The notes under the pieces were generated by a model that saw only the letters and a program-made list of their open reading frames with translations, was not told the origin of the DNA and did not search any database. Source: Erysipelotrichaceae bacterium (GTDB lineage: Bacteria > Bacillota_I > Bacilli_A > Erysipelotrichales > Coprobacillaceae). Taken from it: 35,520 bases of DNA. Below are positions 20,492 to 34,830 of the stretch, piece by piece; position 1 is the first letter of the stretch; each line of letters begins with the position of its first letter. Location of the stretch: the NCBI GenBank assembly GCA_017633115.1, contig JAGBPZ010000051.1, forward strand, positions 1-35,520, read 5' to 3'. Both the position numbers and the translations under genes were made by a program.

Positions 20492-20513
20492 ACATGTCAA
20501 CCGTTTGACATGT
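20492..20513. promoter_or_regulatory. Inverted repeat operator candidate upstream of the sugar operon
   Basis: ACATGTCAA (20492-20500), four bases, then TTGACATGT (20505-20513), a perfect 9+9 inverted repeat. A further TTTGACA at 20525-20531 is a direct repeat of 20504-20510, 21 bases away. The repeat carries TTGACA on both strands, so it could also supply -35 elements, including one for the divergent ADP-ribosylglycohydrolase gene. Confidence 0.5.
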
Positions 20514-20617: not shown

Positions 20618-21595
20618 ATGGAAAATAATAAATTTGATGTTGTTGCATTGGGTGAATTATTGATCGACTTTACTCAGGGCGGCATCTCAGAACAGGGCAA
20701 CCCTATGTTCGAAGCAAATCCTGGTGGCGCACCATGTAACGTATTGTCAATGTTGACACGTTATGGCAAAAAGGTAGCGTTCATCGGTAAAGTAGGTCAT
20801 GATGGTTTCGGTAAACAGTTATCTGACGCAATCAAAGAACAGGGCATCTCAACTCAGGGCTTAAAATATGATGATGAAGTTCATACAACTTTAGCATTAG
20901 TACACAAACTGCCTAACGGCGACCGTGATTTCTCATTCTATCGTAAACCTGGTGCAGATATGAATCTGCGTGCTGATGAAGTTGATGAAGAATTAATCAA
21001 AAATTCAAAAATCTTCCACTTCGGCACTTTATCATTAACTGATGAACCAGTTATCAGTGCTACTAAAAAAGCTGTTCAGATTGCTAAAGACAATGGCTTA
21101 ATCGTTACTTTCGACCCTAACTTAAGAGAACCTTTATGGGATGACTTAGCTGATGCAAAAGCTGCGTTTGACTGGGGTATGAAACAGGCTGACGTTCTTA
21201 AAATTTCTGATAATGAAATCGTTTGGTTCACTGGTAAAGATGATTACGATGAAGGTATTAATGTGTTAAAGACTAACTATCCAAATCTGAAACTCATCTG
21301 CTTATCACTAGGCCCAGATGGTTCAACTGCTTACTATAAAGATTTAAAGGTTTGTCAGGATGCCTTCCTTCAGGAAGAAACAATCGAAACAACAGGCGCA
21401 GGCGATACTTTCTGTGCAACAATTATTAATTATGTATTGGAAGTTGGCTTAGATGATTTCGACGAAGCATCATTAAAAGAATTATTAGTTATGGGTAACG
21501 CAGCCGCTTCACTTGTAACAACTAAAAAAGGTGCTTTAAGAGTTATGCCACAGGTTGATGATATCAAAGCGTTCATTCAGAAAAGATTAGGATAA
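20618..21595 (+). CDS. Fructokinase (PfkB family)
   Basis: This cytoplasmic kinase phosphorylates free fructose to fructose-6-phosphate. The protein has 325 residues. Seen: the N-terminal GELLIDF, sugar-binding NPGGAPCNV near residues 33-41, KVGHDGFG, and the PfkB signature ETTGAGDTFCA near residues 256-266 with the catalytic aspartate. The start has AAGGAAGG upstream. It is first in the operon; the next gene, amylosucrase-like, would release free fructose from sucrose, so the pair makes chemical sense. Confidence 0.92.
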   Translation: MENNKFDVVALGELLIDFTQGGISEQGNPMFEANPGGAPCNVLSMLTRYGKKVAFIGKVGHDGFGKQLSDAIKEQGISTQGLKYDDEVHTTLALVHKLPNGDRDFSFYRKPGADMNLRADEVDEELIKNSKIFHFGTLSLTDEPVISATKKAVQIAKDNGLIVTFDPNLREPLWDDLADAKAAFDWGMKQADVLKISDNEIVWFTGKDDYDEGINVLKTNYPNLKLICLSLGPDGSTAYYKDLKVCQDAFLQEETIETTGAGDTFCATIINYVLEVGLDDFDEASLKELLVMGNAAASLVTTKKGALRVMPQVDDIKAFIQKRLG

Positions 21596-21616
21596 TACAA
21601 CTGAAGGAGAGAAGCG

Positions 21617-23554
21617 ATGTTTAGAAAAGAATGGGATGAAGTATTTAAAAGTCGTCTTGCAAAGCATTACGATGAAATGAAATGGCTTTATTCAGAACTC
21701 TACAACAATAATAGTGAAGCATTTGATTACTTCTGCGACATGCTTTATGAATATCATGAAGCAAGACCACCACTATTAAAGGAATGGGACGAAGCAAGAG
21801 AAGCAGTACCTGATTGGTATCGTGGCAACGAAATGCTTGGTACATTAATGTACACAAATTGCTTCGCTGGCACTTTAAATGGTGTTCGTGAAAAATTAGA
21901 TTATATTAAAGAACAAGGTATTAACTACTTACACTTAATGCCATTACTTGAAAGTCCTGCAGGACGTAGTGATGGTGGTTATGCCGTTTCTAACTTCCGT
22001 AAAGTTCAGCCTGAACTTGGTACAATCGAAGACTTAGCTGCATTATCAGATGAATGCCACAGCAAAGGTATCTCTGTATGTCTTGACTTCGTTATGAACC
22101 ATACAAGTGAAGATCATGAATGGGCAAAACGTGCAAAAGCTGGTGAAAAAGAATATCAGGATCGTTACTTCTTCTTCGATAACTGGACAATTCCAAATGA
22201 ATTCGAAAAGACTGTTCCTCAGGTATTCCCAACAACTGCACCTGGTAACTTTACATGGTGTGAAGAAGCTGGCAAAGTTGTTATGACTCAGTTCTACCCA
22301 TATCAGTGGGACTTAAATTATTCAAATCCTACCGTTTTCAATGATATGACTGCTGACATGTTATATCTCTGCAACCACGGTATCGATATTATCAGACTTG
22401 ATGCTACACCTTACATCTGGAAGACATTAGGCACTGACTGCCGTAACCTGCCTCAAGTTCACACATTATGCCGTATCTTACATATGGCTACTGAAGTTGT
22501 CTGCCCAGGCACATTATTATTAGGTGAAGTCGTCATGGAACCTTCTAAGGTCGTACCATACTTTGGCACTGTTGACAAACCTGAATGCCACTTATTGTAT
22601 AACGTTACAACAATGGCAACTACATGGAATACAGTTGCAACAAAGGATGTCACTTTATTGAAACATCAGTTAGAATCAGTTTTCGCATTACCTAAGGTTT
22701 ACACATTCTTGAACTACCTCAGATGTCATGACGATATAGGTTGGGGTCTCGATTATGACTTCTTGAAACAGTTCGGTATCGATGAAGTTGCTCATAAGAA
22801 ATATTTGAACGACTATCTGACAGGCAAACGTTGGGAATCTAATGCAAGAGGCGAACTCTACAATGATGATCCTCGATTAGGTGATGCCAGATTAACAGGC
22901 ACAACAGCGTCATTGTGTGGTATTGAAGCTGCAGTTTATGAAAAGAATGATTATAAACTGAAGCTTGCACAAGATTTGGATGTCATGTTACATGCATTCT
23001 TATTCACTTTAAGCGGTATTCCAGTTCTTTACAGTGGTGATGAAATTGGTCAATTGAATGACTACACTTATCATGATGATCCATTTAAAGCTGATGACAG
23101 CCGCTATCTGCACCGTGGCAACTTAAACTGGGATCATGTCGCAATGAGAAACGACATGTCAACTCGCCAGGGTCAGCTCTATCATCGTATCATGGACCTG
23201 CTTGCAGTTCGTAAAGACTACAGCGTCTTTGAAAGTGATGCTGATACTTGGTTAGTAGAAACTTATAATAACCACGTTATTGGTGAAGGTCGTTATTTCC
23301 AGGGCCAGAAATTAATCGCATTATTCAACTTCTCAAATGAACCACAGACTGCATGGATCAACGAACCTGAAGATTATATTGATCTTATTACAGGTGAACC
23401 TGCAGAAGCTAAGAATGTCGAATTAGAAGGACATGGTTTCAGATGGTTCTATCATAGCTTTAAGCCAATCGTTGAACGTTCAAAGGTTGCTCCAGTTGTA
23501 AAATCTAAATCTGGCAAGAAGAAAAAGAACAAACGTTCAAAGAAAGGCCATTAA
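21617..23554 (+). CDS. Amylosucrase-like GH13 (subfamily 4-type) enzyme
   Basis: This is predicted to split sucrose and transfer glucose to an alpha-1,4-glucan, releasing fructose; hydrolysis or phosphorolysis are alternatives. It has 645 residues and no signal peptide, so it is cytoplasmic. It resembles Neisseria amylosucrase throughout: a helical N-domain (1-75), YLHLMPLLESPAGRSDGGYAV, QWDLNYSNP, nucleophile D262 (IIRLDAT), acid/base E304 (LLGEVV), D372 (CHDDIGW), and late DDSRYLHR. D119 and R496 match the Asp-Arg pair that closes the -1 subsite in amylosucrase, which favours unphosphorylated glucosyl. The tail (about 625-645) is very lysine-rich, unusual for the family. It lies 21 bases after fructokinase and 138 before a PTS gene. 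Confidence 0.87.
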   Translation: MFRKEWDEVFKSRLAKHYDEMKWLYSELYNNNSEAFDYFCDMLYEYHEARPPLLKEWDEAREAVPDWYRGNEMLGTLMYTNCFAGTLNGVREKLDYIKEQGINYLHLMPLLESPAGRSDGGYAVSNFRKVQPELGTIEDLAALSDECHSKGISVCLDFVMNHTSEDHEWAKRAKAGEKEYQDRYFFFDNWTIPNEFEKTVPQVFPTTAPGNFTWCEEAGKVVMTQFYPYQWDLNYSNPTVFNDMTADMLYLCNHGIDIIRLDATPYIWKTLGTDCRNLPQVHTLCRILHMATEVVCPGTLLLGEVVMEPSKVVPYFGTVDKPECHLLYNVTTMATTWNTVATKDVTLLKHQLESVFALPKVYTFLNYLRCHDDIGWGLDYDFLKQFGIDEVAHKKYLNDYLTGKRWESNARGELYNDDPRLGDARLTGTTASLCGIEAAVYEKNDYKLKLAQDLDVMLHAFLFTLSGIPVLYSGDEIGQLNDYTYHDDPFKADDSRYLHRGNLNWDHVAMRNDMSTRQGQLYHRIMDLLAVRKDYSVFESDADTWLVETYNNHVIGEGRYFQGQKLIALFNFSNEPQTAWINEPEDYIDLITGEPAEAKNVELEGHGFRWFYHSFKPIVERSKVAPVVKSKSGKKKKNKRSKKGH

Positions 23555-23692
23555 TTCAGGTTATTGGTAATTCTTCGGTTTTGACTGCAAATATTGAAAA
23601 TAGAGCGAATTTGTTTAACAATCCGTAAGAATTATTATAAAATAACAATATCAATGTAATTGAAAAGTTAGGAAAGGGGAAAGAAAAATCTT

Positions 23693-25573
23693 ATGGCACT
23701 CGATTACAGAAAATGTGCGGAAGAAATCTATAGCCATTTAGGTGGTAAAGATAATATCGCTTCTGCAGCTCATTGTGCTACTCGTCTGAGACTCGCTATC
23801 GTCGATATCAATAAAGTAGACACAAAGGCACTTGAAAATGTTGAAGGCGTTAAAGGCGTATTCAGCTCAAACGGTCAGTTACAATGTATCATCGGTACAG
23901 GTACTGTCAACAAAGTTTACGACGAATTCTTAGCAGTTACTGGTTTAACAGCTGCATCTAAGGATGACGTCAAAGCAGCAGCTGCTGCATCTCAGCCATT
24001 ACCAATGCGTATGGTTAAATCTATTGGTGACGTATTCGTCCCAATCCTTCCAGCTATCGTTGCTGCTGGTTTAATGATGGGTCTTGTTGAAGCATTAGGT
24101 AAAATTCCTGGCTTCGGTCAAGCATTCGCAGCATCTGACTGGTATGGTTTCTTAGACATGGTATCAGCTACAGCATTCGCATACTTACCAGTATTAGTTG
24201 CAGTATCTGCTACACGTGTATTTGGTGGTAACATCTTCTTAGGCGCTACTGTTGGTTTAGCAATGATCAACTCTGCTTTAACTAATGGTTGGGCTGCTGC
24301 TGATGGTTATGAAAAATGGTATCTTTTAGGTAAAGGTATCAACATCGGTGGTTACTACTTAGGTCAAATCAACAGACTTGGTTATCAAGGTCACGTAATT
24401 CCTGTAATTATCGCAATCTGGTTAATGGCTAAGATTGAAAAGAAATTACACGAAGTTACTCCTGAAGTCTTAGACTTATTCATCGTACCATTATGTACAG
24501 TATTAGCTACTTGCTTAATTACTTTCATGGTCATTGGTCCTATCTTCTCTACTGCTGAAAACTATGTATTAGCAGGCGCTAGAGTATTAGTTCAGTCATT
24601 CTTTGGTATCGGTGCTGGTATCATGGGTGCATTATATCCTATCACAGTCGTTATGGGCTTACACCACATGTACACAGTTATCGAAGCTGGTTTCTTAGCA
24701 GACCCTAACATTGGTTTAAACATCTGGATGCCAGTTGCTTCTTCTGCAAACTTCGCACAGTTCGGTGCTTGTTTAGCAGTTGGTTTAAAAACTAAATCTT
24801 CAAGAGTTAAATCTGTAGCTATCCCATCTGCATTATCTGCAGCATTAGGTATCACTGAACCTGCAATCTTCGGTGTTAACTTCCGTTTCATGAAACCATT
24901 CATCTTCGGTATGGTTGGTGGCGCAGCTGGTTCATTATTCGGTGCTTGGACTGGTTTAGGTGCAGTTGCTTATGGTGTTACTGGTATTCCTGGTTACTTA
25001 ACAATCAACAACCTTGGTCTTTACACTGTTATGCTTGCTATCGCTGGTGGTGTTGCATTCGCATTAACTACTGTTCTTTATAAAGAAGATCCTGATTTAG
25101 CAGACAAAAAAGTAGTTGAAGAACCTGCAGTTGCTCCTGACGTAGTAGCTATGAGCACTGAAACTGGTGAAGTTTTACAGTGTACTCCAGGTACAATCGT
25201 TGCAGCTAAAGACATTCCTGATCCAGTATTCGCTTCTGAAGCAATGGGTCCTTCAGTAGGTATTCAGCCTACAGCTGGTGTTGTTTATGCTCCATTCGAT
25301 GGTGAAGTTGTTATGAAATTCCCAACTAACCATGCAGTTGGTTTAAAGAGTGCTGATGGTATCGAATTATTGATCCACGTTGGTGTTGATACAGTTAATA
25401 TGAACGGTGAAGGTTTCACTCCTAACTGTGATTCTGGCGACAAGATCGCTAAAGGCGACGTATTATTAGAATTCGATCGTGGTGCTATCGCAAATGCTGG
25501 TTATTCTGATACAGTAGTCGTTGTCATTACAAACGGTGCTGATTATACTGCAGTTAAAAAAGCAGCTGAATAA
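23693..25573 (+). CDS. Sucrose-type PTS permease, EIIBCA fusion
   Basis: This protein imports a sugar, most likely sucrose, with phosphorylation. It has 626 residues in the order EIIB (1-85, phosphocysteine C28 in AAHCATRLRL), EIIC (about 105-460, with many helices and the conserved ALGITEPAIFGVN), and a fused EIIA at the C-terminus (SVGIQPTAGVVYAPFDGEV, NHAVGL, and the phosphohistidine in LLIHVGVDTV). The EIIC is nearest in look to ScrA/beta-glucoside-type porters; sugar specificity is inferred. AAAGGGGAAAG precedes the start. No ScrB (GH32) hydrolase is present in the window. Codon use is strongly biased, pointing to high expression. Confidence 0.9.
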   Translation: MALDYRKCAEEIYSHLGGKDNIASAAHCATRLRLAIVDINKVDTKALENVEGVKGVFSSNGQLQCIIGTGTVNKVYDEFLAVTGLTAASKDDVKAAAAASQPLPMRMVKSIGDVFVPILPAIVAAGLMMGLVEALGKIPGFGQAFAASDWYGFLDMVSATAFAYLPVLVAVSATRVFGGNIFLGATVGLAMINSALTNGWAAADGYEKWYLLGKGINIGGYYLGQINRLGYQGHVIPVIIAIWLMAKIEKKLHEVTPEVLDLFIVPLCTVLATCLITFMVIGPIFSTAENYVLAGARVLVQSFFGIGAGIMGALYPITVVMGLHHMYTVIEAGFLADPNIGLNIWMPVASSANFAQFGACLAVGLKTKSSRVKSVAIPSALSAALGITEPAIFGVNFRFMKPFIFGMVGGAAGSLFGAWTGLGAVAYGVTGIPGYLTINNLGLYTVMLAIAGGVAFALTTVLYKEDPDLADKKVVEEPAVAPDVVAMSTETGEVLQCTPGTIVAAKDIPDPVFASEAMGPSVGIQPTAGVVYAPFDGEVVMKFPTNHAVGLKSADGIELLIHVGVDTVNMNGEGFTPNCDSGDKIAKGDVLLEFDRGAIANAGYSDTVVVVITNGADYTAVKKAAE

Positions 25574-25588
25574 TTTATAAACATCTTA

Positions 25589-25617
25589 TTCGGGTGCCCT
25601 TTGGCACCCGAATTTCT
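25589..25617 (+). terminator. Terminator or attenuator between the PTS gene and the HPr-like gene
   Basis: TTCGGGTGCC (25589-25598), loop CTTT, GGCACCCGAA (25603-25612), then TTTCTGATTT. The stem is strong and the U tract imperfect, so partial readthrough into the HPr-like gene is plausible; no separate promoter is seen between. Confidence 0.7.
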
Positions 25618-25637
25618 GATTTCACAAGGAGAAAATT

Positions 25638-25895
25638 ATGGTAGAATTCCAGTATACAATTACTGATGAAGCTGGTATTCATGCTCGTCCAGCAGGCAAA
25701 ATTGTTGCCGCAGTAAAAGGCTTCGAAAGCCATGTCACATGCTGGTCTGAAGATGAAGCCTATGATGTTAAAAAGCTTTTGAGCTTCATGGGATCAGAAT
25801 TAGAATATGGTGAAGTTGTTACAATTCGTACTGAAGGTCCAGACGAAATTGAAGCAGCTGAAGCCGCAAAAAAAGCATTTGAGGAAAATCTCTAA
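25638..25895 (+). CDS. HPr-family phosphocarrier protein lacking the Ser46 site
   Basis: This small cytoplasmic phosphocarrier has 85 residues. The phosphohistidine motif is intact as AGIHARPAG (H15), so transfer of phosphate from Enzyme I to an EIIA is possible. At the position of Ser46, the HPr-kinase target in Bacillota, the ungapped alignment to Bacillus HPr gives Lys46 (segment DVKKLLSFMG); a serine occurs three residues later (S49). This is likely a paralogue dedicated to the neighbouring PTS rather than the housekeeping HPr, which would normally lie beside ptsI. AAGGAG precedes the start. Confidence 0.85.
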   Translation: MVEFQYTITDEAGIHARPAGKIVAAVKGFESHVTCWSEDEAYDVKKLLSFMGSELEYGEVVTIRTEGPDEIEAAEAAKKAFEENL

Positions 25896-26950: not shown

Positions 26951-27189
26951 ATATTCAAAATAAAAGCGTTGAACGAGAATAGTAACTTATAATTGTCTTT
27001 AGCGAGGCAGCACAGAGTGAAAGGCTGCTAGATGGATGTAAGCGAATCGCACTCGGGAGTGTCTGTTGGAAATAAAAGTATAACGGAACGTGAATCTGCG
27101 TTAATGATGAGGTGACCTGTTTAATACAGGTAACTAGAGTGGTACCGCGTTATTATGGCGTCTCTGGATCATCCAGGGACGCTTTTTTT
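26951..27189 (+). ncRNA. T-box riboswitch, arginine specifier (CGC)
   Basis: This leader senses uncharged tRNA-Arg. Seen: the specifier-loop strand AGTA near 26980, an upper stem CTTATA pairing with TGTAAG (about 27037-27042), then GAAT followed by CGC (27048-27050) and A, the normal specifier layout, with CGAG/CTCG closing below. Stem III is ACCTGT/ACAGGT near 27114-27130. The T-box sequence is AGAGTGGTACCGCG (27136-27149), close to the consensus, with TGGT to pair with the tRNA acceptor end. The terminator GCGTCTCTGG/CCAGGGACGC spans 27158-27182 and ends in seven T residues. Readthrough on arginine limitation would express argGHCJB. The stretch 26893-27234 contains no gene. Confidence 0.93.
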
Positions 27190-33025: not shown

Positions 33026-33092
33026 GATTGGTTTGAAAAAGTAGAGTTGATAATATCTTTGTGGTAAGATAAAAGGCAAGAGGATGATAGTT

Positions 33093-33815
33093 ATGAAGAG
33101 AATATACTCTATTGTGTTATGTGTTCTTATGGCTCTTGCACTTTTTGGCTGCGGCCATAAAGAACCAGAAATCAAAGGCGTGATTGCCATCGATCCGGGA
33201 CATCAGGGAAAGCTCAATCTTGAACAGGAACCAATTGGTCCAGGGGCTAAAGAGACAAAAGCAAAAGTGACTGCTGGCGCCACTGGTGTATCAAGTGGTT
33301 CAACTGAAGCAGAACTTGTTTTGGCAATTGGTTTAAAACTGCAAAAGGCACTCGAGGAGGCTGGCTATGAAGTCGTGATGACTCGTACCTCTCAAGATGT
33401 TGATTTATCAAACAAAGATCGTGCTGAGATTGCCAATGAGGCTGAAGCTGATGCATTTATTCGCTTGCATCTCAACAGTGTTAACGATCAAAGCGTTCGT
33501 GGTGCTTTAACAGTAGCCCCATCAAAAAAGAATCCTTATCTAGATGAAGATACCATTACGGAATCAAGATCACTATCTAAAATAATTCTCAAAGAATTTT
33601 GCAAGGAAACAAAACTACGTAATCGTGGTGTCACATATTCGGATACGATGTCGGGCATCAATTGGTGTGAAGTACCAGTCTGTATTATTGAAATGGGCTT
33701 CCTCTCCAATCCTGATGAAGATAAACTACTTAATAAGGAAGACTTCCAGGATCAATGTGTAGTAGGCATGGTTAAAGGTATTGATCGCTATATGGCGAGT
33801 AAGGAGAACGATTAA
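33093..33815 (+). CDS. N-acetylmuramoyl-L-alanine amidase (Amidase_3) lipoprotein
   Basis: This cell-wall hydrolase cleaves the bond between muramic acid and the stem peptide, tethered to the outer membrane face. ATG 33093 with AGAGGATGA upstream gives 240 residues; an in-frame ATG lies at 33084. Seen: lipobox LFGC (Cys20), the zinc ligands in DPGHQG, STEAELV and RLHLNS, and the catalytic glutamate in IIEMGFLSNPDE. An insertion between the first two ligands (about residues 45-72) is longer than in compact members. The next gene begins at its stop codon, so it forms an operon with the alkyltransferase and DJ-1 genes. Confidence 0.92.
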   Translation: MKRIYSIVLCVLMALALFGCGHKEPEIKGVIAIDPGHQGKLNLEQEPIGPGAKETKAKVTAGATGVSSGSTEAELVLAIGLKLQKALEEAGYEVVMTRTSQDVDLSNKDRAEIANEAEADAFIRLHLNSVNDQSVRGALTVAPSKKNPYLDEDTITESRSLSKIILKEFCKETKLRNRGVTYSDTMSGINWCEVPVCIIEMGFLSNPDEDKLLNKEDFQDQCVVGMVKGIDRYMASKEND

Positions 33816-34273
33816 TGTATGTATTTGCCTATCGTACAAGACAGTTAGGAATGATTTATATTGGTGAAACAGATGGTTTTATCGATTATGTGAATTTTTT
33901 TCCATTAACTGATCGTATTGAAAAAGAAACAACGCTTATTAAAAAGTGCTTCCAAGAATTAACAGAGTATCTTGAAGGCCAGCGCCAAACGTTTGATTTG
34001 CCAATCAGGCAGGAAGGAACGCCGTTTCAAGAAAATGTTTGGAAAGCTGTTATGCAGATTCCTTATGGTAAGACTGCTTCCTATCAGGATGTTGCGAAAA
34101 TGGCAGGTAGACCACTTGCCTATAGAGCAGCTGGCAATGCGATCAACAAAAATAAGATTTGCCTGATTATCCCTTGCCATCGTGTGATTAAGCAGGATGG
34201 GTCACTGGGTGGATATAATGGTCATGAAGACCGTAAATTGTATTTATTAGAACATGAAGGAGGAAAAATTTGA
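33815..34273 (+). CDS. Methylated-DNA-[protein]-cysteine S-methyltransferase
   Basis: This suicide DNA-repair protein takes the alkyl group from O6-alkylguanine onto its own cysteine. The protein has 152 residues. Seen: the winged-helix DNA-binding part QIPYGKTASYQDVAKMAG near residues 84-101 and the active site IPCHRVI near residues 122-128, then GYNGHEDRKLYLLEHEG. The start overlaps the amidase stop by 1 base and its stop overlaps the next start by 1 base, so the three genes are tightly coupled. It is an Ogt-type single-domain form. Confidence 0.95.
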   Translation: MYVFAYRTRQLGMIYIGETDGFIDYVNFFPLTDRIEKETTLIKKCFQELTEYLEGQRQTFDLPIRQEGTPFQENVWKAVMQIPYGKTASYQDVAKMAGRPLAYRAAGNAINKNKICLIIPCHRVIKQDGSLGGYNGHEDRKLYLLEHEGGKI

Positions 34274-34830
34274 TGAGTCGTGTAGGGATTTTATTAGCAG
34301 ATGGATTTGAAGAAGTTGAAGGTTTAGCAGTTGTTGATGTTTTAAGACGTGCGGGCATCAGCATTGATATGGTATCAGTTACAGGTCAGCTTGATTTAAA
34401 AACATCAAGACAGATTGGTGTTAAAGCTGATAAACTTTTTGAAGATATGGATCAATATGAAATGATCGTTTTACCTGGTGGACTTCCAGGTGCTGCTACA
34501 TTAAGAGATGATCCAAAAGTCATTGATTTATTAAAACGTTATGATGAGCAAGGTAAATATATTGCAGCTATTTGTGCTGGACCAATGGCTCTAGGTGTTT
34601 CAGGTGTTGCCAAAGGTAGAAAAGTCACTTCTTATCCAGATGACACTACAAAATCTTACTTAAAAGAAGCAGATTATCAGGAAGATATGGTTGTTGTTGA
34701 TGGTCGTGTAATCACTAGTCGTGGGCCTGCTACAGCATGGGCATTTGCTTATCAGCTAGTAGATTTATTAGGTGGTAATTCTAATCAATTAAAAGAAGCT
34801 ATGCTTTACAATCGTTACATGGAAAAATAA
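34273..34830 (+). CDS. DJ-1/PfpI family protein
   Basis: This belongs to the DJ-1/PfpI superfamily, close to the YajL/DJ-1 branch by its opening GILLADGFEEVEGLAVVDVLRRAG. The protein has 185 residues from ATG 34273. Seen: the conserved glutamate in FEEVE near residue 14 and the nucleophilic cysteine in AAICAGPMAL near residue 104. Known roles include protein-damage control, glyoxalase activity and chaperone function; which applies is not shown. It is translated from AAGGAGG just inside the previous gene, and is the last gene before the IS element. Confidence 0.92.
   Translation: MSRVGILLADGFEEVEGLAVVDVLRRAGISIDMVSVTGQLDLKTSRQIGVKADKLFEDMDQYEMIVLPGGLPGAATLRDDPKVIDLLKRYDEQGKYIAAICAGPMALGVSGVAKGRKVTSYPDDTTKSYLKEADYQEDMVVVDGRVITSRGPATAWAFAYQLVDLLGGNSNQLKEAMLYNRYMEK

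Follow-up and report, generated by a model that had tools for sequence, protein, structure and literature searches.

The operon described here probably belongs to a pathway in which sucrose enters through the phosphotransferase system (PTS), is freed of its phosphate inside the cell and is then cleaved by an amylosucrase-like enzyme of family GH13_4. This proposed pathway joins two routes that are, by themselves, incompatible. EIIBCA and HPr would import sucrose as sucrose-6-phosphate (S6P), and the phosphate would be stripped off intracellularly by a dedicated phosphatase of the Cof-type HAD group, whose gene adjoins EIIBCA in most relatives. GH13_4 would then cleave free sucrose, passing the glucosyl unit to alpha-1,4-glucan or glycogen (or to water, giving glucose) and releasing fructose, which the fructokinase would phosphorylate. 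In the organism from which the DNA comes, the HAD enzyme may be replaced by another of the numerous Cof-type phosphatases encoded there, or S6P may be shared with a GH32 S6P hydrolase encoded elsewhere. A preliminary description had left three options: unphosphorylated sucrose in the cytoplasm, an enzyme evolved to accept S6P, or a PTS for a different sugar. The first is now the best supported, by way of a PTS-linked phosphatase that the description had not seen, while the other two are weighed below.

Results and Discussion

The operon and its genes

The window, that is, the whole stretch of 35,520 nucleotides analyzed, carries the following features. The four reading frames that had been listed for frk, GH13, EIIBCA and HPr are all intact at the expected positions.

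20495..20510, + strand: palindrome TGTCAACCGTTTGACA, candidate operator for a LacI-type sucrose regulator, upstream of frk
20618..21595, + strand: frk, fructokinase-like sugar kinase of the PfkB family (PF00294, E 1e-49; GGAPCN and TTGAGD motifs)
21617..23554, + strand: GH13_4 amylosucrase-like enzyme, 645 aa (top solved relatives are amylosucrases)
23555..23692: intergenic gap of 138 bp, occupied in close relatives by the HAD phosphatase gene
23693..25573, + strand: sucrose-type PTS EIIBCA (TIGR01996, PF00367, PF02378, PF00358)
25638..25895, + strand: HPr phosphocarrier (PF00381, E 4e-21; TIGR01003 above cut-off)

For frk, the fructokinase model PRK09434 is the top NCBIfam match, with a score under its cut-off. 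The sucrose IIBC model TIGR01996 likewise ranks first for EIIBCA, with 497 bits, short of its cut-off of 559. The EII domains are ordered B-C-A and keep their phosphorylation sites (C28 in EIIB, H562 in EIIA), and HPr has the phosphorylation motif GIHARPA. Among the relatives' PTS loci with good coverage, 27 of 39 include an HPr gene. Several Lachnospiraceae-type loci (L078, L080, L083, L100, L114 and others) encode their own HPr together with Enzyme I, a complete private PTS chain.

The palindrome at 20495-20510 is an exact match to TGTCAANCGNTTGACA, of which exact copies occur in distant species: upstream of HAD-EIIBCA in L189 (8059-8074), and twice in L127 (1119-1134 and 1229-1244), both times upstream of GH13_4. 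It is a candidate ScrR/LacI operator. The palindrome is rare in relatives, so a shared operator is a tentative suggestion. Further downstream, a T-box leader (RF00230, 134 bits; 26960-27168) lies directly upstream of an argininosuccinate synthase-like gene.

The GH13_4 enzyme

The assignment of the GH13 enzyme as amylosucrase-like was borne out. Among solved structures, its 18 best-matching chains all come from amylosucrases or sucrose hydrolases, led by 7esh (E 4e-142), and the Neisseria polysaccharea amylosucrase NpAS (E 8e-135) shares 41% identity with it over 559 aligned residues. The catalytic residues D262, E304 and D372 correspond to NpAS D286, E328 and D393. The D119-R496 pair noted earlier is also kept, aligning with NpAS D144 and R509. 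The preliminary description had taken this pair, which closes the -1 site around unmodified glucose in amylosucrase, as an argument for an unphosphorylated substrate, and this argument does not hold. In an alignment, the trehalose-6-phosphate hydrolase (TreC) encoded in this genome shows D and R in the two corresponding columns. The TreC substrate bears a 6-phosphate, so the pair cannot discriminate between the two kinds of substrate, and we rejected it as a test.

More can be learned from the relatives. In the GH13_4 tree, proteins linked to ABC transporters and proteins linked to the PTS are interspersed and form no separate clades, so that the idea of a distinct PTS-specific clade was rejected. 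The catalytic and -1 subsite positions that we examined are identical in 41 PTS-linked enzymes with HAD, 4 PTS-linked enzymes without it and 9 ABC-linked enzymes. ABC uptake yields free sucrose, so the simplest assumption is that free sucrose is the substrate of every one of these GH13_4 enzymes. Genes for the close Bacillota relatives of the window's enzyme (59-78% identity) are found with PTS genes, with ABC transporter genes or linked to neither. As far as the sequence tells, the main activity may be either polymerization or hydrolysis. The predicted structure, with a mean pLDDT of 65 and a poor active site, was not relied on.

In Kandleria, Sharpea and relatives (L098, L074, L037, L038, L039), the GH13_4 proteins end in long, repetitive, Lys/Ala-rich tails resembling histone H1. 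The tail of the window's enzyme is short and lysine-rich (KKKKNKRSKKGH, 23489-23554). Genome G019 (L047, 5438-7406) has a second copy of GH13_4, diverged and with its match interrupted by in-frame stops, which is followed by a diverged HPr; the flanks of this copy match the window's genes at 33084-34830. Near relatives of the enzyme are also found in rumen assemblies labeled Synergistes or Spirochaetales (L115, L117, L120, L137, L140), some with HAD and PTS, which points either to transfer or to mislabeled bins.

A phosphatase gene linked to the sucrose PTS

Relatives that have this operon encode a Cof-type HAD protein next to EIIBCA, in a gene of about 273 codons that mostly lies between GH13_4 and EIIBCA; in L035-L045 and L098 it occupies the very position of the window's gap. 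The relatives' proteins have the PF08282 domain along with the motifs DxD, T, K and GDxxND. One copy, with every HAD motif intact, shares 64-81% identity with eight others. The predicted fold is that of a Cof-type HAD phosphatase, and the best solved relatives are Cof proteins from structural genomics and BT4131, not the plant or cyanobacterial sucrose-phosphatase. Substrate specificity cannot be read from such a sequence.

Gene content was counted in the 68 GH13_4 loci whose downstream sequence extends for 4 kb or more. Both EIIBCA and HAD are present in 36, EIIBCA alone in 3, HAD alone in 2 and neither in 27. Thus, HAD accompanies 36/39 PTS-linked GH13_4 genes versus 2/29 of those without EII (Fisher p 2e-13, a value that ignores relatedness), and in the same count it is found at none of 13 ABC-linked loci. 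One ABC-linked locus reached from the HAD side, L242, has a diverged HAD (45% identity). HAD orthologs, scoring at least 499 bits (the next best match has 270), are present in 11 of 148 related genomes, and all 11 have the operon of GH13_4 and PTS EIIBCA. None was found in G131, which has GH13_4 and no linked PTS. In G153 and G154, GH13_4 stands alone and HAD lies directly before EIIBCA elsewhere in the genome, and 7 genomes without this EIIBCA have no HAD. With all sets pooled, HAD is present in 58 of 65 GH13_4-PTS loci and missing from 7, the window included. The gene tracks the sucrose PTS, not GH13_4 as such.

The cleaving enzyme also matters, as illustrated by 397 Lachnospiraceae genomes sampled regardless of this system, from which the sucrose-type EIIBCA loci were collected. 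HAD occurs in 19/23 of the sucrose-PTS loci with GH13_4 versus 1/48 of those with GH32, a contrast whose Fisher p is inflated by relatedness. The sole GH32 locus with HAD, L236, lies on a contig that ends within the first part of a GH13_4 gene. On the EII tree, the cleaving enzyme was swapped 5 times independently, each time with HAD present or absent as expected (sign test p 0.06, the lowest value attainable with 5 swaps). A role for HAD as a general partner of the sucrose PTS was rejected, given the GH32 loci without it. With HAD as the query, the same genomes yielded 28 loci in several gene orders, most of them with EIIBCA and/or GH13_4; L239, L240, L242 and L245 have no EII nearby.

The genome of the window's organism

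The source assembly is a 2.0 Mb draft, 96% complete. In both the GH13_4 and the EII tree, the genomes in the set that lie closest to it belong to Kandleria vitulina, Sharpea porci and other members of the same family. Three-frame translation of the 138-bp gap gave no recognizable HAD motif, and no HAD ortholog was found in the assembly, where the best match is an ordinary Cof paralog at 32% identity. Within the limits of an assembly that is 96% complete, we rejected relocation of the gene to another place in the genome. Because the window branches inside the clade of loci carrying PTS and HAD in both trees, the gene has most likely been lost in this lineage. A substitute phosphatase, or a division of labor with GH32, must therefore be assumed here, and 27 stretches of the genome match Cof phosphatases.

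The absence of an S6P hydrolase from the operon, as described previously, was confirmed: the linked ScrB of a classical scr operon is missing, and the window has no GH32 gene. The genome search that had been suggested for GH32 and glycogen genes found both. There are three GH32 genes, all on other contigs. The one on contig C40 scores above the scrB_fam cut-off (430 vs 356 bits) and has the signature HGLK; in the remaining two, the Trp of the invertase type is found. A His-x-x-Lys signature has been reported for sucrose-6-phosphate hydrolase (PMC7833758), and the C40 enzyme is probably of this type. The preliminary description had counted against its account a sucrose-induced scrB elsewhere in the genome combined with a GH13 enzyme inactive on both sucrose and S6P; one half of this, a GH32 of the S6P-hydrolase type elsewhere, is what C40 appears to provide. 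No PTS genes adjoin it. In three other genomes with the operon (G115, G124, G135), no match to the scrB family was found at all. A GH32 gene of the window's genome (L057, 343-5439) adjoins a PfkB kinase and what we take, by resemblance alone, to be dehydratase-like and aldolase-like genes, an unusual setting for an invertase.

GlgA, GlgB and GlgP are encoded in all 12 genomes tested. In the window's genome, GlgB and GlgP lie together on contig C22 and GlgA on other contigs. In G145 (L042, 1606-9180), glgC-glgD-glgA continue directly into frk-GH13_4-HAD-EIIBCA, where glgC and glgD are named by sequence resemblance. This gene order would tie the sucrose operon to glycogen synthesis. A point against the phosphatase route is that the phosphate bond added by the PTS would be wasted, and ScrB would retain it. 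If the glucosyl unit passes through glycogen and is released by GlgP as glucose-1-phosphate, the total cost would be 1 PEP and 1 ATP per sucrose, equal to that of the ScrB route.

Alternative explanations

It is conceivable that PTS-linked GH13_4 enzymes act directly on S6P, as S6P hydrolases or 6-phosphoglucosyl transferases, with a secondary role for HAD. The PTS loci without HAD (the window, L078, L112/L297, L279, L280 and L309) would fit such an activity, and the D-R pair is compatible with a 6-phosphate, as TreC demonstrates. We nevertheless regard it as quite unlikely, and the corresponding option of the preliminary description is disfavored for the family as a whole: the active-site residues equal those of ABC-linked enzymes that meet free sucrose only, both kinds are interspersed in the tree, and direct action explains neither the linkage of HAD to these loci nor its absence alongside GH32. 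A narrower version, to which we assign only a slight probability, is that the window's enzyme and a few other HAD-less PTS-linked ones gained S6P cleavage, as S6P hydrolases or makers of a 6-phosphoglucan, and made the phosphatase dispensable. The preliminary option of a different PTS sugar found little support. That EIIBCA transports another disaccharide and is linked to GH13_4 incidentally would agree with its score under the TIGR01996 cut-off, yet the best model is the sucrose one, and the sampled Lachnospiraceae EII loci have GH32 as a neighbor in 48/80 and either GH32 or GH13_4, both sucrose enzymes, in 71/80. Moreover, frk, and in some loci GH32, co-occur with EII. We consider this explanation very improbable.

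A more serious alternative, still rather doubtful, applies to the window's organism alone and leaves room for the phosphatase route in relatives. The C40 GH32 may hydrolyze S6P in trans and GH13_4 may use sucrose from another source, for example fructo-oligosaccharides, so that the operon would be a relic. The scrB_fam score and HGLK signature of C40, the invertase-type character of the other two GH32 enzymes and the loss of HAD from this genome are consistent with this explanation. However, no PTS adjoins the C40 gene, and relatives lacking any GH32 are left unexplained. Furthermore, GH13_4 is not decaying: its identity to the Kandleria protein is 78%, compared with 74% for frk and 72% for EII. 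Being no less conserved than its neighbors, it seems to be still under selection.

Comparison with known systems

No report of the PTS-HAD-GH13_4 arrangement was found in the open-access literature, of which our coverage is incomplete. If the phosphatase pathway is correct, it would be a second bacterial route for PTS sucrose, present in many rumen and gut Bacillota, and would predict an S6P phosphatase function for a HAD subfamily so far named by superfamily only. In rumen bacteria, Sharpea and Kandleria among them, dietary sucrose would then feed straight into storage glycogen, and annotation based on ScrB would overlook the use of this sugar by species like G115 and G124.

The maltose 6'-phosphate phosphatase (MapP) pathway was reportedly described by Mokhtari in 2013. 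In Enterococcus faecalis, MapP joins the PTS to an enzyme that needs the free sugar (PMC3737437). The logic is alike: a disaccharide enters through the PTS in phosphorylated form, and a phosphatase whose gene adjoins that of EII frees it for the next enzyme. The differences are that the sugar here would be sucrose instead of maltose, the phosphatase belongs to another family, and the next enzyme is GH13_4, not maltose phosphorylase or MalQ. The phosphatase gene linked to EII is absent from the window and present in the 58 of 65 loci counted above.

The amylosucrases (GH13_4, from Neisseria polysaccharea and others) resemble the window's predicted enzyme in their catalytic and -1 site residues, at the 41% identity given above. 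In contrast to them, it sits in a PTS operon, and several of its Bacillota relatives have basic C-terminal tails. At the ams locus of Faecalibacterium prausnitzii, an ABC-linked amylosucrase gene adjoins fructokinase, and E. coli lysates carrying the enzyme degrade sucrose (PMC8894670); uptake there is by an ABC transporter, hence there is no phosphate to remove. With the classical scrA-scrB-scrK system, the operon shares a sucrose-type EIIBCA and a fructokinase. It differs from that system in having GH13_4 in place of the GH32 enzyme ScrB and, in most relatives, the additional HAD gene.
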